NCBI GenBank assembly: GCA_913009915.1
Contig: CAJVYZ010000020.1
Coordinates: 1 to 12,733, forward strand
From: an uncultured Gemmatimonadota bacterium
Lineage (GTDB): Bacteria; Gemmatimonadota; Gemmatimonadetes; Gemmatimonadales; GWC2-71-9
Reading direction: 5' to 3'
DNA: 12,733 nucleotides
Made by a program: the position numbers and the translations under genes. Shown here piece after piece: positions 2,236-12,108 of the stretch. A model generated the notes under the pieces. It made no database searches. It had not been told where the DNA came from and saw nothing but the letters and a program-made list of their open reading frames with translations. Within the stretch, counting starts at the first letter, position 1; each line of letters begins with the position of its first letter.

Positions 2236-2241
2236 TATATT
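2236..2241 (+). promoter_or_regulatory. Candidate -10 hexamer for leaderless transcript of the Omp85-like gene
   Basis: TATATT is followed by six bases (CGGACC) and the GTG start at 2248. It is a near-consensus -10 in otherwise GC-rich DNA. The upstream 17-base spacing lands on ACTCCG, so there is no recognisable -35. No Shine-Dalgarno precedes the GTG. It lies back to back with the rnz promoter candidate, about 50 bp apart. Confidence 0.5.
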
Positions 2242-2247
2242 CGGACC

Positions 2248-4905
2248 GTGACATCATTCGTCGTGTCCCAACCGTTCCTGACCCGCGGATGTGCGGCGGC
2301 TCTCCTGTCGCTCGCCGTTCCAGCGCTAGGTCTTTCGCAGGCCGCGACCAAACAGGCCAGGCCGGATACAGTCGTGCAGGTCGTGCCGGGTTTTGAATAC
2401 CGGACCTTCGGCAAGCAAGCCTGGCTGTTCGGCTCCGGCTACCGCCACTTATGGGCCGACACCATCACCGTTCCGCTGCTGGACCTCGAACGTGTGAGCG
2501 GCGGGCTCACCCCTGTCTGTTCCCCGGCCACGCTCCTCACCGAGGACCTGCGGTTCTCCTCGGACGACGGCCCCAACCTGCTGTTCCGCTCGATCAACAA
2601 ACAGTTCGCGGGGAGGTATCTGCCGCCTTCTCTGCGACGTAGCCTTGCCGGACAGCTAGTCCAGGACATCGTCAGCGCGAATCATCCGGCCGGGCCCCTC
2701 GTCGCACCACCGTTGTACCACGCTCTGGGGATTCCCTATCCCCGATCGACCCTGGTGTCCCTCCCCGACAGTCAGTCACTGGGAGACTTCGGCAAGGACT
2801 TTGGCGGAGTGCCGGGCTTCCTGAGCGTCGAGTTGGCTCCCGGCCTAGTGGCCGTGCCCGAGCTTCGGGAGACCGTCGAGATCATCACCACCGAAGAGTT
2901 GTGGGAGCGCACCCGTCGGGGAGACGACGTGGTCGACGCCCACGCCTATCTCACCGCCCGCCTCATGGACGTCCTGGTAGGCGACGCGGGGGTCAACTAC
3001 AGCCGGCTCCGCTGGGGCCGTCTTGCCGGAGTTGAGCCGCGCGTGTGGCGACCCATTCCCTGGGATCGCGATCACCCATTCACCAACAATGACGGGTTGG
3101 CAAAGTGGTACGCGCGCTTCTATCTCCCGGACCTGGTGCGCTTCGGCCGGGAATACCCCAGCATCTACGGACTCACGCGGATGGCGTCGGTACTCGACAG
3201 GCGGTACCTGTCCGGCTTGGGGCTGCCGGTTTGGGATTCGGTCGTGAGCGTCATCCAGACCCGCATCAGCGACAGCCTGATCGACGAATCAGTGGGCCGC
3301 ATGCCGCCGGAGATGTTCATTCAAGACGGGGCCGAGCTTGCCGCGGTCCTCAAGGCTCGCCGGGACGCGCTCACGGAAGCCGCGGAGCGCTACTACCGGC
3401 TTCTTGCCAAGTCTGTGAACATCCACGTCACCGGTGACGGCGATGTGGTGGAGGCAACCCGCCTGTCGAACGAGCGCCTGGGACTCTCGCTGTGGCGGGC
3501 AAACGCCGAAGAGGACAAGGTCGACAGTGTGCCCTACCTCACCCGAGTGTTCCGCCGGGACGAGACTGGCGAGATCCGGCTGTACCTCGATGGCCTGGAC
3601 GACAGCGTGGCCATCCGCGGCGAGGGGACCCAACGCATCAAGCTGCGCATCATAGCTGGTGAGGGAGAGGACGTCATCGATCCGTCCACCAGCCCGGAAA
3701 CGGAAGTATACCGCCCGGGAGGCGAGCCGGCCGCTATCATGGCAACCATCATTCAGCCACGGTTCGGCGGCCACGTCACGTTCAACCGTACTCCTCAATC
3801 GGTCTCGCACGCTTGCGCGGTGTCTCCCTCGCAACCCGCTGCAGACCTCCGGGCACCGGCCCGCGATTGGGGCACGGCTTGGATCCCCATACCCGCCCTG
3901 GGGTATATCAGCGGGCTCGGCGTCTACGCCGGGGCTGGGGTATCCAAGACCGACTACGCGTTTCAGGCGTATCCCTTCAAGGCACAGCATGCCCTCTGGG
4001 GTGGCTACGCCTCGACGCCGAGCTCGTTCTTTGCCGAGTACTACAGCGATTTTCGCCGGGTTGTGGGCCCGGTCGGCGGATACCTGGGCGCCAGCATATC
4101 CGGAGTGGCCAATCCTGAATTTTACGGCATCGGCAACGAAACCGCCAAAGATCAACCGGACTCGTTCTATCAGATAGAGCAGGTCGAAGGTGCCGTGACA
4201 CCTCTGGCCACTCTTAACCCCAAGGCCTATACCCAGATCGCCGCCGGGGTGTACTACAAGCACTCCCGAACACCGCTCGGCGCCGGCAACATCATCGACG
4301 TCCTGCAACCGTTCGGCGGCGGCGACGTCGATGAAATCGGTCTCACATCGTACTGGAGATTCGACAGCTACGACAACAACATCGCCACGCCGACCGGTCT
4401 GCAACTCAACATCAACGCCCAACTCGGTTTTGTTTCCGGGGATTCCGTCTATGGGGCACTCTCGGCGGACGTTTTGGGATTCACGTCCACCGACCGCCTC
4501 CCTGGCAACCCAACATTGGCCGTCCGGGTGGGGGGCCAGCAGAACATCGGGGCTTATCCCTTCTACGGCGCCGCTTACCTCGGCGGGACGGACAACCTCA
4601 AGGGCTACGCCCCCAATCGCTTTGCCGGAGACGCCTCGGTCTACCTCAATTCCGAACTGCGCGTGTTTCTCACGGAGATCCGCTGGCCGATCCCGGCCAA
4701 CTTCGGCATTCTAGGTATCGCCGACGTGGGGCGGGTATTCGTGAGCGGGGAAACGTCCAGAGTATGGCACAGCGGCTTCGGCGGCGGAGTATGGTTCGGG
4801 CTACTACGCTCAGGCCAGGGGCTCAATCTGGCCCTGGTCGACGGTGAGAGCTTGCGCCTGTACATTAGTACTGGTTTCATCCTCAAGAAGAAACGCATCT
4901 TCTGA
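2248..4905 (+). CDS. Exported protein with kinase-like domain and C-terminal Omp85 (BamA/TamA-type) barrel
   Basis: The 885-residue product has a signal peptide (residues 1 to about 32, hydrophobic AALLSLAVPALGLSQA). Residues about 85-470 resemble the region found before Omp85 barrels in many Bacteroidota and Gemmatimonadota proteins: 'FRSINKQ', 'VQDIVSANHPAG', 'YHALGIPYPRS' (157-167), 'YLTARLMDVLVGD', then 'PIPWDRDHPFTNNDG' (DRD at 273-275). The order resembles HipA/CotH/FAM20-type kinase folds, where a DRH motif and a metal-binding Asp motif follow each other. At 246-250 this protein reads DAGVN where relatives, as I recall them, read DWDRH, so the domain may be inactive. A beta-rich linker follows ('EIRLYLDGLDDSVAIRGEG', 'KLRIIAGEGEDVID'). 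Residues about 545-885 form the barrel: 'GGTDNLKGYAPNRFAGD' (the conserved RGY-like turn), 'NSELRVFL', 'GILGIADVGRVF', 'GFGGGVWFGL', ending in Phe. A metallophosphoesterase domain that I recall at the N-terminus of longer relatives is absent. GTG 2248 gives an intact signal peptide. The Vps62-like gene follows 28 bp later. Confidence 0.85.
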   Translation: MTSFVVSQPFLTRGCAAALLSLAVPALGLSQAATKQARPDTVVQVVPGFEYRTFGKQAWLFGSGYRHLWADTITVPLLDLERVSGGLTPVCSPATLLTEDLRFSSDDGPNLLFRSINKQFAGRYLPPSLRRSLAGQLVQDIVSANHPAGPLVAPPLYHALGIPYPRSTLVSLPDSQSLGDFGKDFGGVPGFLSVELAPGLVAVPELRETVEIITTEELWERTRRGDDVVDAHAYLTARLMDVLVGDAGVNYSRLRWGRLAGVEPRVWRPIPWDRDHPFTNNDGLAKWYARFYLPDLVRFGREYPSIYGLTRMASVLDRRYLSGLGLPVWDSVVSVIQTRISDSLIDESVGRMPPEMFIQDGAELAAVLKARRDALTEAAERYYRLLAKSVNIHVTGDGDVVEATRLSNERLGLSLWRANAEEDKVDSVPYLTRVFRRDETGEIRLYLDGLDDSVAIRGEGTQRIKLRIIAGEGEDVIDPSTSPETEVYRPGGEPAAIMATIIQPRFGGHVTFNRTPQSVSHACAVSPSQPAADLRAPARDWGTAWIPIPALGYISGLGVYAGAGVSKTDYAFQAYPFKAQHALWGGYASTPSSFFAEYYSDFRRVVGPVGGYLGASISGVANPEFYGIGNETAKDQPDSFYQIEQVEGAVTPLATLNPKAYTQIAAGVYYKHSRTPLGAGNIIDVLQPFGGGDVDEIGLTSYWRFDSYDNNIATPTGLQLNINAQLGFVSGDSVYGALSADVLGFTSTDRLPGNPTLAVRVGGQQNIGAYPFYGAAYLGGTDNLKGYAPNRFAGDASVYLNSELRVFLTEIRWPIPANFGILGIADVGRVFVSGETSRVWHSGFGGGVWFGLLRSGQGLNLALVDGESLRLYISTGFILKKKRIF

Positions 4906-4933
4906 TCGAAGCAACCTCCTCCCGAGGACCCAA

Positions 4934-7495
4934 ATGCGCATCTTGGTGTTCGGCTCCATCCTCCTGTTGGCCGTCGCGGCGGAGATCGAGCCACTGACGG
5001 CTCAAGACATCCCCCACGACCAATACCTCAATTACATGCCCCTGGAGTATCATCGCATCGTGCGGCAGACCGATGCCAGTGCGGCGTTGCAACTCTATGG
5101 CGATCCCGACGCGCCCGGCTTCCGCGACGAGGATCCCCGGGACGGCGTCGACGACACCCGCGGGCGGCTGTTCCACCAGCTCGGAGTACGCTTTGCGCCA
5201 TACCTAGTCAAGAACACCACGGCCGCCCCGATGGACTTCAAGAAGTTCATGGATCAGTCTTCCTCGTTCCTGTTGTACGTGGATCGGTGGAACATCGGCG
5301 TGCGGCCGCCCGACCTCGACGGCCAGGAGACCATTGACTGGGCCAACCTCCTCAAGGCCCCCTGCGAGATCAGTGGACCGGGTGTCCAGATAGGCCCACC
5401 AAGCAGGAGTTCGGGTAACGACGACTGCCGCTTGATGAACCTGCTCCAAGAGTTCGACCCGTTCAATCCCACCGACCCCCGGTTCAACGATCCCAGCCGA
5501 GCCACGGATTACGACCCGTTCACCGTCATGTACTTCAACTTTCCTGGAGACAGTCCCGAAACCTGGAAACTGGAATACGAACAGATCATCTCGGGCAACC
5601 TGCCGCACAAGTATCAGGACTACTCCAAGATCTACGTCCACCCGTTCCTGAAGGCGATCCGAAGCAACCTGGAGGGTGTGCAAGGGTACGAATTCGTGCT
5701 CCAGTATTGGCTGTTCTATCCGTTCAATGACGGCGGCAACAACCACGAGGGCGACTGGGAACACCTCAACGTGGCTATTTCACCGATGTCGGCAGTGGAA
5801 CGCTACCTGACCGAAGAGGAAGTGAACGGAATACTGAGCAGCGATCCCGGTGCGCTCGACGGCGCGGATCCTCTGGTCATCAAGCGCATCGATTTCTACT
5901 TCCACCATCAAGTGATGATGGTGGACTTCGGTAGTCCCAACGTGTACCTGCCGCAAGCCCAATGGGACTCGGTAATGCGCCATCGCGAGAAGGAACTCGT
6001 GTCGGAAGATTTTCTGTGGAAGTCGGCTCGCTACATGGCCTACCAGGACGACGCCGAAACCATCATCAACACCCATCCGATCGGTTACATCGGCGCCGAC
6101 AACAAGGGACTCGACCAGCTCCTTGCCGCACCCGGAGGCAAGAACCGGGATTCACACGGTACTTACCCCTTCACCGGCCTCTACAAGGACGTCGGCCCCG
6201 GTGGATCGACAGAGCAGATCAAGAGCCGCTGGGACCACCGCAAGTATTTCGCCGACGTGTCGAGAGGGTTGCCGACGGAAGTCGCGGCCTACGATCTCGC
6301 CGGGCGGGTGGAGGTCATCCCCGACTGGGAGGTATTCCACCCCATGCTGGCCGATGAGCCGGCTGTCCGCCAGGACTGGAGCTGGATGGTGTTGCCGATC
6401 CGCTGGGGATACCCGGCCTCGGAGTCGCCATTCGCGGGTTTCATCGCCAACGCGGAGACCGGCAACCTGGCGCCTCCCGGACCGACCTATCAGTCGAGCT
6501 GGAACACGTCCGGCGCCAGTGCCGGGTTCCACCACTACAACCCACACAAGTTCTCGTCACTGTTCCCGCTGGGCTATCAGGACACGTTCAACAACAGCCT
6601 CGGGTTCATCAACGGCATCACCTCGACCCTATTGGTCCTCCCGCCGATCGACTTCCTGTGGCGCGTGGTGGCGGCGCCGTTTCGCGCCGCCATCAATAAG
6701 CCGGTGCCGGTGTTCTTCCCTACCGAAAAGGTGCCCTTCCGATTCCTGGGCCTGTTCGGCGGTCCGGCAGCCGAATTCATTTCCGAAGACTTCAACCTCC
6801 TATTCCTCGACTCGACGCTGGCAATCCCGATATTCACCAGACCGGAACTCTCGACCGATACCGGCTTCGTGGCGTTAAACGAATCGATCCACGCCAGTAA
6901 CACCAGCTTCATCTTCGGGGGCTCGCTGTTCCTCGGCAAACGACTGGTGACCACCAACACCATCCGTAATTCGCACCATGAAATGGGGTTCGATCTTCTA
7001 ATATTGCCGACCCAACGGACGTACCAGGTACGGGGAAACCTGAACCTGTGGGAGTGGGCCGGCAGCCTCCGCTACAACCTGGCCACGGAGAAATTCCAGC
7101 CGTACCTCAAGATCGGCTATGGACTCAGTTGGTACCGCCTTCAAGACGTCACCACACAGATCGTCGGGACCGACGCCGATCCGGTAGCGCTCGACCCTCC
7201 CCAGGGCCTGTGGGTCAGGCAGCCGTGGCGCGATGACCAGGGCAACACCGACGCCTTCGCCAATCTGTGGCCCAACACGCTCCATTTCGGGGGCGGCATC
7301 GAGTTGATCCCGGTCACCAGCCGGGCTCCGATTCCCAGAGGGATCGACGTGAGCCTCCTGCTGGACTACTCCCATTTTCGCCACGCGCTGGGTGTCAAAC
7401 GCACTCTGGTCGAGGGTGTGACTTTCGAGGGCGGTGAGCGTGACAGGACCGTCACCAGAAACGTGGTGACGCTGGCGCTGTCGCTGGGGTTCTAG
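4934..7495 (+). CDS. Exported Vps62-like domain protein with C-terminal beta-barrel-like region
   Basis: The product is 853 residues. The start is ATG 4934, with GAGGA (4924-4928) five bases upstream and a signal peptide following (MRILVFGSILLLAVAAEIEP, cleavage near TA/QD at 23-24). The frame is open upstream to 4844 but would overlap the previous gene and mask the signal. Residues about 200-420 recall Vps62 / DUF946 proteins: 'LQYWLFYPFNDGGNNHEGDWEHLNV' split as YWLFYPFND (258-266) and NHEGDWE (270-276), then FHHQ (323-326) and a late DSHGTYP (406-412). In that family the HEGDWE and 'SH..YP' blocks are the hallmark; their function is not established. A hydrophobic stretch follows ('STLLVLPPIDFLW'). 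From about residue 640 to the end alternating amphipathic strands and a terminal Phe (VVTLALSLGF) suggest an outer-membrane barrel. It is probably cotranscribed with the Omp85-like gene. No enzymatic role can be named. The barrel call rests on pattern only. Confidence 0.78.
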   Translation: MRILVFGSILLLAVAAEIEPLTAQDIPHDQYLNYMPLEYHRIVRQTDASAALQLYGDPDAPGFRDEDPRDGVDDTRGRLFHQLGVRFAPYLVKNTTAAPMDFKKFMDQSSSFLLYVDRWNIGVRPPDLDGQETIDWANLLKAPCEISGPGVQIGPPSRSSGNDDCRLMNLLQEFDPFNPTDPRFNDPSRATDYDPFTVMYFNFPGDSPETWKLEYEQIISGNLPHKYQDYSKIYVHPFLKAIRSNLEGVQGYEFVLQYWLFYPFNDGGNNHEGDWEHLNVAISPMSAVERYLTEEEVNGILSSDPGALDGADPLVIKRIDFYFHHQVMMVDFGSPNVYLPQAQWDSVMRHREKELVSEDFLWKSARYMAYQDDAETIINTHPIGYIGADNKGLDQLLAAPGGKNRDSHGTYPFTGLYKDVGPGGSTEQIKSRWDHRKYFADVSRGLPTEVAAYDLAGRVEVIPDWEVFHPMLADEPAVRQDWSWMVLPIRWGYPASESPFAGFIANAETGNLAPPGPTYQSSWNTSGASAGFHHYNPHKFSSLFPLGYQDTFNNSLGFINGITSTLLVLPPIDFLWRVVAAPFRAAINKPVPVFFPTEKVPFRFLGLFGGPAAEFISEDFNLLFLDSTLAIPIFTRPELSTDTGFVALNESIHASNTSFIFGGSLFLGKRLVTTNTIRNSHHEMGFDLLILPTQRTYQVRGNLNLWEWAGSLRYNLATEKFQPYLKIGYGLSWYRLQDVTTQIVGTDADPVALDPPQGLWVRQPWRDDQGNTDAFANLWPNTLHFGGGIELIPVTSRAPIPRGIDVSLLLDYSHFRHALGVKRTLVEGVTFEGGERDRTVTRNVVTLALSLGF

Positions 7496-7556: not shown

Positions 7557-8444
7557 CTAGAACAATTCAACCTTGATGTTCAGCTTGCCGGGCGAGGCCG
7601 TGAGGGTGTCGATCAGCGCCTGGATGGACCGCTGGGTCTCGATCAATCCCTGATACAGCGTGGTGTCGGTCACCAGTTTGCCCAGCGTGCCCTTGCCGCT
7701 GTTCATATTGACGAGGAGCGTGTCCATCCGGGCGGTGGTCACGGTGAGTTGCCGAGTCATGGCCTTCAACCCGGCGGCGGTAGAATCGAAATTGCTGAGC
7801 ATATCCCGAAACGTGGGACTGGCGATGGCACTGTCTATCCGGGTAGTCAGGCGCCGCATCGCCGCCAGAGTCCGGGTGAGTTCTCCCATCGGCCCGGCGG
7901 CCGTGTCGGCCAGTACCTGAAACATCTCCTGCGACGCCAGGAAGGTTTCGTGCAAGTCTTGCGACAACTGCGTGGTGAACATGATCGCCATGCTGTCCAT
8001 CAGCGCCTCGGCCCTTTTCACCATGCCCGACCCCAAGTCTGCCAACCCGCCGGTCAGAGAGCCTGGGATCTCACCACCGTCCGCCAGCGGCGTGGCTGAA
8101 GTCCCGGGGAAATAGTCGAGCACCACGTCGCCGATGAGTCCGATCGAGGTGATGGAAGCCGTCGCGTCTTCCCGTGGCAGGACGTCCGGGTTGGATAGGT
8201 TCAGACGCACCGCGACGTCGCCCACCGCTCTGAAGTCGATTCGCTCCACATTGCCCACGTCGACGCCGGACACCCTGACGGCCGATCCGCGCTTGAGGCT
8301 TCCGATGTTGCTGAACGTGGCCGTGTAGAGGGTCCCGCCGCCGAATGACCGGCCCTGCAGCCACAGCGTCCCGGCCAGGAACAAGACCACTGTCACCAGT
8401 ACCATGCCGCCGACGGCCGTTGCCTGTTTATAGTGCAGATCCAT
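7557..8444 (-). CDS. mlaD: MCE-family lipid-binding protein MlaD
   Basis: The 295-residue product is the periplasmic, membrane-anchored substrate-binding part of an Mla-type phospholipid transporter. One N-terminal membrane helix (about 11-30, VGGMVLVTVVLFLAGTLWL) is followed by the MCE domain (about 38-118): 'TATFSNIGSLKRGSAVRVSGVDVGNVERI', here seen as FSNIGSLKRGSAV then VSGVDVGNVERIDF, and 'SIGLIGDVVLDYFPG'. The rest (about 130-270) is a long helical region, as in MCE proteins that form extended assemblies. It includes the frequent 'GKGTLGKLVTDTTLYQGL' motif near residues 250-267. The C-terminus KLNIKVELF looks like a strand. The ATG at 8444 lies 9 bp after the mlaF stop, so it is the last gene of the mlaEFD operon. 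It ends next to a hairpin facing the convergent operon. Separate MlaC and MlaB proteins are not encoded in this window. Confidence 0.93.
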   Translation of the reverse strand: MDLHYKQATAVGGMVLVTVVLFLAGTLWLQGRSFGGGTLYTATFSNIGSLKRGSAVRVSGVDVGNVERIDFRAVGDVAVRLNLSNPDVLPREDATASITSIGLIGDVVLDYFPGTSATPLADGGEIPGSLTGGLADLGSGMVKRAEALMDSMAIMFTTQLSQDLHETFLASQEMFQVLADTAAGPMGELTRTLAAMRRLTTRIDSAIASPTFRDMLSNFDSTAAGLKAMTRQLTVTTARMDTLLVNMNSGKGTLGKLVTDTTLYQGLIETQRSIQALIDTLTASPGKLNIKVELF

Positions 8445-8453
8445 AAGGTACGC

Positions 8454-9206
8454 TCACGCCGCAAAAGAAGGGTTTTCGAAGTCGCGCTCGAGAAAGGCCT
8501 TGACCTCGGGACGGGAGGACTCCATGAACTCCTCCTTGGTCCCCTCCAAGACGATCTTCCCGTTGGCCAGAAGCGCAATGCGGTCGGCAACCCGGAAGGC
8601 ACCACGCACGTCGTGGGTAACCGTGACGCTGGTGACACCCAGTTCCTCCGCCAGCCGCGTCACCAGGTTGTCGATGATATCAGCGTTGACGGGGTCGAGT
8701 CCCGACGTTGGCTCGTCATACAGCAGGTACTTGGGTTCGCCGGCGATCGCCCGAGCGATGCCCACCCGTTTCCGCATCCCACCTGACAGTTCCGCCGGCA
8801 GCTTCCAGCTCGTGTCTGCTGCCAGGTTGACCAACTCCAGGCATCGTTGCACGCGCTCGGCGCAATAGTCGCGGTCGCGATAGTGATCGGAATCGACGAT
8901 GCCGATGCGGATGTTCTCGAACACATTCATCGAATCGAACAAGGCGCCATTCTGGAAGACGTAACCTATGCGGGTGCGCAACGCCGCCAGTTCCTTGCGG
9001 CGGAGCCGCGCAACCTCCAGACCGTCGACCAGGACCCGGCCGAGATCGGGACGGATCAACCCATTGATGTGCTTGAGGAGCACACTCTTGCCGGTACCCG
9101 ACGGGCCGAGTAGGGCAACCGTCTCCCCTTCCAGCACGTCGAAGTTGACCCCGTCGAGGACGACCTGGTCGCCGAAGCGCTTGTGCAGATTGGTGATTTC
9201 GATCAT
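8454..9206 (-). CDS. mlaF: ABC transporter ATPase MlaF
   Basis: The 250-residue product is the cytoplasmic ATPase that powers the Mla lipid transporter. Motifs are complete: Walker A GPSGTGKS (34-41), Q-loop YVFQNGALFDSMNV (82-95), ABC signature LSGGMRKRVGIARA (140-153), Walker B LLYDEPTSGLDP (161-172) and the H-loop VTHD (196-199, His198). The 'GALFDSM(N/T)V' Q-loop and 'LSGGMRKRV' signature are characteristic of the MlaF/Ttg2A subfamily rather than generic ABC importers. Its ATG (9206-9204) overlaps the mlaE stop as ATGA, pointing to translational coupling. mlaD follows after 9 bp. Confidence 0.96.
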   Translation of the reverse strand: MIEITNLHKRFGDQVVLDGVNFDVLEGETVALLGPSGTGKSVLLKHINGLIRPDLGRVLVDGLEVARLRRKELAALRTRIGYVFQNGALFDSMNVFENIRIGIVDSDHYRDRDYCAERVQRCLELVNLAADTSWKLPAELSGGMRKRVGIARAIAGEPKYLLYDEPTSGLDPVNADIIDNLVTRLAEELGVTSVTVTHDVRGAFRVADRIALLANGKIVLEGTKEEFMESSRPEVKAFLERDFENPSFAA

Positions 9207-10060
9207 CCGTGCAACAGCACCCGGGCCAGAAGCGTGTCCAACAGCAGGATCAAGACCGAGCTCACCACCACCGCCGTGGTGGTAGCCTTACCGACGCCCT
9301 CGGCACCCTGCTGGGTGCTGAACCCCATGTAGGTCGAAGTCACGGCGATCGACACGGCGAAGGCAAAGGCCTTGATGACGGAGTAGTAGGCGTCGAAGTC
9401 CCGCCAGAACGCACGAGCGCCATAGCTGAAATCCGAGTTGGTGATCGGCAACACCTGCATGGCAAAATACCAACCGGAGGCTACGCCGATCACATCGGCC
9501 AGGACGGTCAGCACCGGAATCATCAACATGCACGCTAGGATCCGGGGCACCAACAAGTGTGATGCCGGTGAGCGCCCCAAGCTCTCCAGCGCGTCGATCT
9601 GCTCGGTCACCCGCATGGTGCCCAGCTCCGCGGCGTAGCGCGCACCGATCCTGCCGGCCAGCACCAGGGCGGTCAGGACCGGGCCCAACTCCAAGATGAT
9701 GGACTCCACCACCAGGCTGCCAACGATGTAGAGCGGAATGCTCCCGGTAAACTGATAGCCGGCCTGCAGGGCCGTGACCGCTCCGGCAAAAGCCGAGACC
9801 AGCACAATGATGAACAAGCTGCCGATGCCCACATTGTACGACTCCTCGATGGTCCGCGGCAGCCAGATGCGCCACTCCGCCAAGCCACGGACGAACTCGG
9901 CCAACATTCTCGTCACCCGACCGACAGCCGCCAACGCGTGCAGGACATACGTCCCGACGGCGTGGGGAAGTGAAAGAATGGTCGGTGTCGAAGTTACGGT
10001 CATCGGCGCTATACACCCGGTGGATGCGGTCGGTACGGGAACCCATCGGTCACCGTCCAC
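9203..10060 (-). CDS. mlaE: MlaE-type permease of the Mla lipid transporter
   Basis: The product is the inner-membrane permease of the MCE/Mla system, 285 residues from GTG 10060 or 266 from ATG 10003 (MTVTSTPTIL). The family core starts about residue 33 of the long form: an amphipathic helix, then 'GSLFIIVLVSAFAGAVTALQ', 'GSLVVESIILELGPVLTALVLAGRIGARYAAELGTM' (visible as ELGPVLTALVLAGRIGAR and AAELGTMRVTEQIDALE), 'SHLLVPRILACMLMIPVLT', and a last pair of helices to LLARVLLHG. ELGP...GRIGAR...ELGTM..TEQIDAL is the MlaE signature. Neither start has a Shine-Dalgarno. GTG 10060 is preceded by TAGCCT at six bases, which fits a leaderless start, but the first 19 residues are not conserved-looking, so the start is uncertain. 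It is the first gene of mlaEFD. Confidence 0.93.
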   Translation of the reverse strand: MDGDRWVPVPTASTGCIAPMTVTSTPTILSLPHAVGTYVLHALAAVGRVTRMLAEFVRGLAEWRIWLPRTIEESYNVGIGSLFIIVLVSAFAGAVTALQAGYQFTGSIPLYIVGSLVVESIILELGPVLTALVLAGRIGARYAAELGTMRVTEQIDALESLGRSPASHLLVPRILACMLMIPVLTVLADVIGVASGWYFAMQVLPITNSDFSYGARAFWRDFDAYYSVIKAFAFAVSIAVTSTYMGFSTQQGAEGVGKATTTAVVVSSVLILLLDTLLARVLLHG

Positions 10061-11316: not shown

Positions 11317-12108
11317 TCAAAGGGACAGACTTCGGTCAACCCCGGAGCCCGACACATTCTCATTCTGTAACATTTCAGTCACCGCTACGTAGCCGCGCGA
11401 CTCGTAGTCTCGGATTTTCTCGACCTCGAACGTCACCCCGCTCTCAACCCTCGGCCGGACATACAGCAATTGGGGAAGTCCCTCCGTCCGACGCCACCAT
11501 TCGAGCGCGCTTTGGGTGGCACCGGCCATGAGGATCCCGACGGCGTCCCCGTGGGCTCGCATGAGCGGAGGTACCCGGGGGGCGGCTCCGCCTCGCTCCT
11601 CGAACCCCGGGCCGACGTCGATGGCGATGACGAGGTCGCACGGGGTCTTGGCGGCTACCTCGAGCGGAAGGACGGCCCGAATGCCGCCGTCTCCCAGCCG
11701 CCGGCCGTTGATGACGGTCGACGGATAGTACACCGGGAGGGCCGCGCTGGCGTAGAGGACGTCGATCAGCGGGGCATCTTCACCGCCGGCGCCGAACAGC
11801 ACCAGTTCACCGCTGTCGAGATCGGTGGCGGTAACCGTCAGGGGGATTTCGAGGTCGCCGAATCGGTGGGCAGGCACGATTCGTTCGATCGTGCGCCGGA
11901 GCGGCGACGCCCGGAGCACCGAGCGCGCCCGGATGCCGGCCAACAGGGCCAGCGGGTTGATGGAGGCGACATCACTCCGCTTCATGGACGACACGTCGTC
12001 GCTGAGCGCGTCGGGTGAGCGGCCGCTCGCCAGCCCCCCCCCGACGATTGCGCCCACGGCCGTCCCCCCCACCCCTCTTTTTCCTCCAACCTGCGCGACA
12101 CCTGACAC
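11317..12108 (-). pseudogene. 5'-truncated patatin-like phospholipase (no N-terminus, nucleophile Ser replaced by Ala)
   Basis: The readable frame is 263 codons from GTG 12108. An internal GTG at 12072 behind GGAGG is another possible start. Downstream sequence is good patatin: 'PLTVTATDLDSGELVLF', 'LYASAALPVYYPS' (118-130), and the catalytic Asp motif GDGG (139-142, Asp140), then 'LPLEVA'. The normal N-terminus, with the oxyanion-hole GGGxxG and roughly 40 residues before the nucleophile elbow, is absent. The elbow itself reads GTAVGAIVG (15-23) where GTSVGA is expected, so the nucleophile serine is Ala17 (codon GCC, 12060-12058). Two C-runs on the plus strand flank this spot: nine C at 12034-12042 and seven C at 12064-12070. 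The residues before it (MSGVAQVGGKRGV) do not resemble patatin and reach into the AT-rich segment. It reads as a remnant cut at a junction and is very unlikely to be an active lipase. A sequencing or assembly fault at this spot is also possible. Confidence 0.72.

Follow-up and report, generated by a model that had tools for sequence, protein, structure and literature searches.

An exported kinase-like Omp85 protein and a Vps62-like barrel protein encoded side by side in a Gemmatimonadota genome: a possible two-barrel outer-membrane module

Results

Genes for two predicted outer-membrane barrels at one locus

We analysed a 12,733-nt stretch of DNA from an uncultured Gemmatimonadota bacterium (contig CAJVYZ010000020.1, our contig C20, in an assembly of 3.47 Mb and 676 contigs), here called the window, and within it two co-oriented genes on the forward strand. 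Gene 1 (2248..4905, 885 aa) encodes an exported protein that joins a kinase-like region to an Omp85-type barrel, and gene 2 (4934..7495, 853 aa) an exported protein that joins a Vps62-like domain to an 8-strand barrel. The genes are separated by 28 bp (4906..4933, +), and this gap contains a GAGGA ribosome site (4924–4928) five bases ahead of the gene 2 ATG. No Shine–Dalgarno sequence lies upstream of the GTG of gene 1; a −10-like hexamer, TATATT (2236..2241, +), whose promoter role is putative, stands 6 nt ahead of the start, and the segment 2236–2250 is thus a possible leaderless-type start. By eye, both N-termini resemble signal peptides, up to about residue 32 in gene 1 (2248..2343, +) and residue 24 in gene 2 (4934..5005, +). 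A preliminary description of this DNA had proposed the order of genes and domains, a ribosome site for gene 2 only, and an outer-membrane location of both products; coordinates and architecture were confirmed, the names kinase-like and Vps62-like are supported as motif-level labels, and the signal-peptide-like starts together with predicted 16- and 8-strand barrels agree with two exported outer-membrane proteins.

The AF2 model of gene 1 ends in a 16-strand Omp85/TamA-like barrel (residues 543–875; 3874..4872, +), for which structure searches returned TamA and BamA as the closest matches. It is preceded by a kinase-like region (residues 40–390; 2365..3417, +), delimited by motifs common with relatives and by AF2 secondary structure, and by an all-beta linker domain (residues 389–488; 3412..3711, +). 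The linker lacks POTRA-like helices, and no helix of at least four residues is predicted anywhere between residues 388 and 543, so that the POTRA domain (at least one) in the Omp85 definition of PMC11116518 is not seen in the AF2 model. Searches of Pfam and NCBIfam gave nothing above cut-off for either protein and no Pfam family at all for gene 1; NCBIfam Omp85_fam was found in gene 1 at E 1.3e-9, short of its cut-off. The missing hmmscan match carries little weight, because the open frame of gene 1 scored 32.7 bits for Omp85 in a separate scan and 32 of 52 gene-1 family members match Omp85 in Pfam. Searches of the PDB gave no useful match with the single gene 1 and gene 2 sequences, mainly BamA barrels with a gene-1 profile and 0 matches with a gene-2 profile. 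Foldseek and VIA lists for both models were filled by barrels, and matches in the viral library were mostly barrels as well; no kinase or NPP1-type chain is among the structural matches listed, a result of barrel-dominated whole-model searches that excludes nothing.

For the C-terminus of gene 2, structure prediction, the check proposed in the preliminary description, gave an 8-strand barrel of the OmpA/OmpW type (residues 605–852; 6746..7489, +), in line with structure searches. The Vps62-like core (residues 232–526; 5627..6511, +), defined by a motif table of 20 proteins and by hhalign, contains HEGDWEH (residues 271–277; 5744..5764, +) within a conserved set of His, Asp and Glu residues. 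H236, H271, D274, E276, H277 and H324 are invariant in 121 aligned sequences, and H381 and H408 are conserved in at least 90% of them. In the motif table, the conserved residues recur in a shorter Vps62-barrel family (L141–L148; labels with L or P are ours), and most of them also in proteins from KSB1, Eisenbacteria and Paenibacillus; H408 is absent in L139, L149 and L151. The His/Asp/Glu set is likely a metal site. Several of the short Vps62-barrel proteins pair a lipobox-like start (LAGC in L143) with a C-terminus that resembles a barrel and ends in RF, an unusual arrangement with lipid anchor and barrel in one protein.

Gene 2 shares QYWFFYPYND, NHEGDWEH, THP and HxxYP-like motifs with Paenibacillus proteins, and the motif table shows this chain to be common to gene 2 and proteins matching PF06101 (Vps62). 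Unlike those, gene 2 matches neither the PF06101 nor the PF05630 (NPP1) HMM and is fused to an 8-strand outer-membrane barrel. The one Paenibacillus protein scanned, L172, matches PF06101 (E 1.1e-12), and a bridging protein, L157, gives a weak NPP1 match below the cut-off (E 0.017). Alignment of gene 2 to a Paenibacillus-led set by hhalign reached a probability of 98.6 over only 49 columns around one motif; the set had been collected with that same motif, and the result is better evidence for a common motif than for a domain common to both in full. Two papers hold that part of the Pfam label ‘Vps62’ is a mis-assigned beta-tripod domain; therefore, the label says little on function. The gene-2 search found 474 relatives, and the 120 listed include proteins from Myxococcota, KSB1, Cloacimonetes and Gemmatimonadota. 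A gene-2 member at E up to 1e-30 occurs in 12 of 102 genomes of the window's taxonomic family, and a match at E up to 0.001 in 28 of 395 genomes of the phylum, fragments and motif-only matches included.

The order of soluble domain and 16-strand Omp85 barrel in gene 1 is that of PlpD/FplA-type proteins (type Vd; PMC11116518), which raises the possibility that each barrel brings its own N-terminal domain out to the cell surface. We regard this as quite improbable: the prototype PlpD retains its patatin domain in the periplasm (PMC11116518), and an 8-strand barrel is too narrow for a folded domain. Gene 1 also departs from the type Vd plan of patatin passenger, POTRA and barrel, in that its soluble domain is kinase-like with no patatin match, POTRA-like helices are not seen, and it is paired with a second barrel gene. 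The preliminary description had left the large soluble parts either in the periplasm or outside. They would most simply face the periplasm, because both barrels are even-stranded with the soluble domain ahead of strand 1; an outside location is not favoured.

Loss of the catalytic loop in the window clade

Relatives of gene 1 share, with variations, the motifs FRSVDK, GDxDRHxxQWRWARF and WRPIPRDRDxAF, in which we see a likeness to the motifs that provide the Lys, the catalytic loop and metal binding in atypical kinases (Fam20C, CotH and HipA types); no profile shows this resemblance. In the window, the place of the catalytic loop is taken by GDAGVNYSRLRWGRL (residues 245–259; 2980..3024, +), where relatives typically read GDxDRHxxQWRWARF, and WRPIPWDRDHPF (residues 267–278; 3046..3081, +), the counterpart of the relatives' PIPRDRDxAF and presumably metal-binding, is kept. 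We aligned 124 gene-1 rows, near-copies included, of which 110 lie outside the window clade and 108 of those cover the motif region. Outside the window clade, D[RK] is present in the loop in 108/108 rows, the Lys in 106/108 and D[RHY][DE] in 107/108. Within it, the loop is gone in 14/14 rows (13 distinct proteins, P0001 being L023), so that the set of Lys, catalytic Asp loop and metal-binding Asp motif is incomplete throughout the clade; P0012–P0014 in addition read DRG where others read DRD. Beyond these 14 rows, L142 has neither the Lys nor the DRD motif, and in P0194 the Lys is missing. If the family is kinase-like at all, its domain in the window would be a pseudokinase-like remnant. Two more specific identities were dropped: Fam20C after HMM search, with no PF06702 match in the window genome, and CotH after hhalign of the gene-1 profile to one CotH sequence gave a probability of 0.4.

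We built gene-1 trees from 117 of the 124 rows, after removal of P0001, P0015, P0016, P0042, P0052, P0055 and the L081 fragment, and from sets of 59 and 47 rows hand-picked to span the branches; alignment A4 omits P0003 and P0016. Representatives of the window clade form one clade with L143 and L142 in the 59-row tree (98/95, with the bootstrap not fully settled), and the same clade appears in quick trees with SH-aLRT 88 (117 rows) and 93 (59 rows). In 47-row trees without the L142 fragment, it is recovered with SH-aLRT 80 from the N-terminal half alone and 96 from the barrel alone. The kinase motifs have decayed almost exclusively within this window/L143/L142 clade (in the window lineage and L142), and wherever neighbours are known in the clade, they include a Vps62-barrel gene.

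Recurrence of the gene pair

Of the 47 gene-2 loci that are full-length or nearly so, two have a gene 1 no more than 4 kb away: the window and, as a weak partial match of 74 bits, L128; full-length gene-2 relatives thus rarely adjoin gene 1. Within the window clade, the adjacency is likely kept for two further pairs, P0009 with P0056, which both report a longest contig of 37,991 bp, and P0014 with P0061, both 47,186 bp; it is these matching longest contigs that point to it. The gene 1 proteins of these pairs are 82% and 59% identical to that of the window, respectively. A second kind of pairing involves the short Vps62-barrel family: at L143 the short gene begins 10 bp past the gene 1 stop (8195 and 8206), at L142 it is divergent from gene 1, and at L141/L086 it lies ~2.7 kb from gene 1 with an opposed gene between; no gene 1 was found at the other five of the eight short Vps62-barrel loci. 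The conserved adjacency that the preliminary description put forward as a check was therefore borne out in part, since the pairing recurs with the short family at L143 and L142, and full-length gene 2 accounts for only 2/47.

The rarity of the full-length pair, seen only in the window and partially at L128, would be expected if the two genes were chance neighbours that work separately. We consider this explanation improbable, given that the genes lie 28 bp apart on the same strand, that the pairing is likely kept in the P0009/P0056 and P0014/P0061 genomes, and that a second Vps62-barrel family adjoins gene 1 proteins of the same clade.

A generally conserved operon containing gene 2 was a candidate that we dropped, the largest neighbour cluster having four members. 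In the ORF caller, 44 of the 47 entries kept the gene-2 ORF, and a different Omp85-like family is found near three of these 44 loci. At L096 (7941–9698, −) the Omp85-like gene is divergent and carries POTRA and Omp85 by Pfam; at L109 (5167–6831, +) it is the next gene on the same strand, and at L130 (9177–10838, +) the second gene on, neither with a Pfam match above cut-off. In genome G370, on two contigs (L126 and L128), a lipoprotein-type metallophosphoesterase lies directly ahead of gene 2; therefore, gene 2 can enter the kind of neighbourhood that we describe next for gene 1.

Phosphate genes around the gene-1 family

The gene-1 family is common in Gemmatimonadota. With two candidates scored per genome, 233 of 395 genomes of the phylum have a match at E up to 0.001, a count that includes weak matches, in part probably other Omp85 barrels; by hand count the best E is at most 1e-100 in 128 of the 395. 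We surveyed neighbours within 4 kb, by tblastn and six-frame HMM searches, at 47 gene-2 loci and at 46 gene-1 loci (42 listed phylum-search matches, L093 and L094 among them, plus L086, L143, L092 and the window) that were hand-picked before their neighbours were seen and are not a random sample. Representatives of the neighbour families were named by Pfam.

At least one phosphate-type gene was found at 34/46 gene-1 loci vs 2/47 gene-2 loci, both of the latter being metallophosphoesterases; the two sets of loci are unequal in flank length and in taxonomic make-up. By type, the gene-1 loci have polyphosphate kinase (PPK) at 17, DUF4956 at 19, metallophosphoesterases of two types at 14 and 8, SdiA-regulated/phytase-like proteins at 10 and Ppx/GppA at 3. 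The rate of 34/46 is inflated, because the surveyed families were chosen for their recurrence on the same gene-1 loci and four of these (L086, L212, L217 and L226) were the source of the reference proteins, which makes their matches inevitable. Near-duplicates (L093/L094 and L126/L128) were counted apart. It is the contrast between gene-1 and gene-2 loci and the range of phosphate functions, more than the rate itself, that constitute the evidence. PPK neighbours are scattered over the gene-1 tree (17 rows, with at least 10 gains or losses forced by supported branches). The second gene-1 copy of the window genome (contig C405, L092) has a metallophosphoesterase directly upstream, and P0200 (1231 aa) carries a member of that metallophosphoesterase family as an N-terminal fusion (phmmer E 3.9e-33, residues 22–360), although Pfam reports Omp85 only in this protein. 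Taken together, the neighbourhoods hint at phosphate or polyphosphate metabolism. For the secretion or surface-modification module suggested in the preliminary description we found no support.

Some of the loci have features of their own. Of three PPKs scanned, the two adjoining gene-1 family members at L202 (7011–10199, −) and L213 (6608–9394, +) have an N-terminal CYTH-like stretch, with matches of 17.1 and 22.5 bits, under the cut-off of 23.2. At L093 and L094, tandem gene 1 duplicates stand beside a PPK.

These neighbourhoods also bear on the strongest of the rival explanations, in which gene 1 is a dedicated assembly factor of the BamA, TamA or Sam50 kind that inserts the gene 2 barrel, its kinase-like remnant serving as a substrate-binding appendage. 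An Omp85 barrel closest to TamA and BamA is encoded directly upstream of a second barrel, its kinase motif is dead, and the different Omp85-like family near 3/44 gene-2 loci may be a parallel case. Against this, the 388–543 interval lacks POTRA-like helices, gene-1 family members mostly adjoin phosphate genes, and at 45/47 gene-2 loci gene 1 is absent from the surrounding 4 kb, although BAM or an Omp85 encoded elsewhere could do the work in those cases. We judge an assembly role unlikely, while giving it serious consideration.

Other genes of the window

Downstream of the pair and convergent with it, MlaD, ABC ATPase and MlaE genes form a single run of phospholipid-transport genes (7557–10060, −). 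A patatin-like protein (11317–12108, −; PF01734, E 5.7e-20) has GTAVG in place of GxSxG, which we take to be the catalytic-Ser motif of patatins, so that its catalytic Ser is seemingly lost. The Mla genes and the patatin gene were considered as candidate partners of the pair and dropped. A Gp49-like protein (PF05973; 12190–12540, +) presumably belongs to the RelE/HigB-type toxin family.

Discussion

The predicted architecture, the motif decay, the clade and the phosphate-gene neighbourhoods are results of computation, from which we infer a joint function of gene 1 and gene 2. Our tentative preference, held at somewhat short of an even chance, is for an outer-membrane family linked to phosphate, one clade of which no longer has an active site of its own and is partnered by a Vps62-barrel protein, the pair forming a two-barrel outer-membrane module. 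Members of the gene-1 family would be Omp85 barrels whose kinase-like domain is normally intact and whose neighbourhoods link them to phosphate or polyphosphate metabolism. With the catalytic loop lost in the window clade, the domain is probably a binding or scaffold part, and the barrel may act as anchor or pore. Gene 2 would supply the working domain, a Vps62-like domain with a probable metal site, tethered by its own small barrel and acting on a phosphate-bearing ligand of the envelope, and gene 1 would hold or position gene 2 by physical contact. The simplest account is that the working part changed: the Vps62-type domain would act, the old kinase-like domain bind or hold, and the outer membrane fix both in place.

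Several observations weigh against this two-barrel account. (i) Up to E 1, Pfam finds no kinase family in the 52 gene-1 family members, and the kinase motifs are intact in L143. (ii) The gene 1 of L142 is a fragment covering 34% of columns; neighbours in the clade were read in three lineages only (window, L143 and L142), and three of the six window-clade rows in the 59-row tree have neighbours that were not read. L086, with a short Vps62 gene nearby, falls outside the clade, and a label test on 117 rows, with L086 included and unknown contexts kept apart, found the rows next to a Vps62 gene unclustered (6 changes vs a shuffled mean of 5.9). (iii) The short Vps62 partners are only 25–27% identical to gene 2; therefore, the window clade either exchanged its partner or has had it for a very long time. 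(iv) In Myxococcota, Krumholzibacteria, Acidobacteria, Cloacimonadota and other groups, the gene-2 family is found with no gene 1 adjoining it, and neither the window nor L143 has a surveyed phosphate gene within 4 kb.

A wider reading, which we consider distinctly doubtful, is that Gemmatimonadota have an envelope-spanning polyphosphate pathway with the gene-1 family as its outer-membrane part, and that the window shows the state after an enzyme swap. In such a pathway, cytoplasmic PPK, with a CYTH-like N-terminus in some loci, would make polyphosphate, with DUF4956 handling the polymer at the inner membrane. In the periplasm, which has no ATP, the kinase-like domain on its Omp85 barrel might then bind polyphosphate or take phosphate from it, and the lipoprotein-type metallophosphoesterase would work in the opposite direction. 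The window would have retained the dead kinase as a scaffold and replaced it with a Vps62-type metal domain on a second barrel.

Comparison with described systems places the family near known ones. Heinz and Lithgow (2014; PMC4104836) describe Omp85 subfamilies with similar barrels, ‘noNterm’ without an N-terminal extension and ‘Metallo’ carrying PF00149, and the barrel architecture of gene 1 belongs near these two. Here the kinase-like barrel gene often has a metallophosphoesterase gene beside it, and in P0200 the two are joined in one protein. The main text of that article (figures and supplements apart), however, has no word beginning ‘kinase’, ‘Gemmatimon’, ‘phosphat’ or ‘polyphosphate’ and so names neither the kinase-like half nor a link to polyphosphate; our placement is not taken from its clustering. 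Gram-positive gene clusters that combine CotH, a polyphosphate polymerase and DUF4956 (PMC7112168) resemble the setting of several gene-1 members, in which a kinase-like protein stands beside a polyphosphate enzyme and DUF4956; they differ in their Gram-positive hosts and in CotH itself, which is not detectably related to gene 1. In the AnaToc75 paper, polyphosphate is named only in the reference list. Among top-ranked titles and abstracts of the open-access literature, preprints excluded, we found no report of a kinase-like Omp85, of its polyphosphate neighbourhood or of Vps62-barrel proteins.

Omp85 proteins are known mainly for protein assembly or translocation, and a large, POTRA-less, kinase-like and phosphate-neighboured branch would add phosphate chemistry at the outer membrane to their roles. 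Such a branch would also allow tests of whether, and in what way, bacteria with two membranes handle polyphosphate outside the cytoplasm. Within it, the window clade would serve as a natural experiment, in which the motifs of the enzyme are lost where a new partner in the outer membrane is found.

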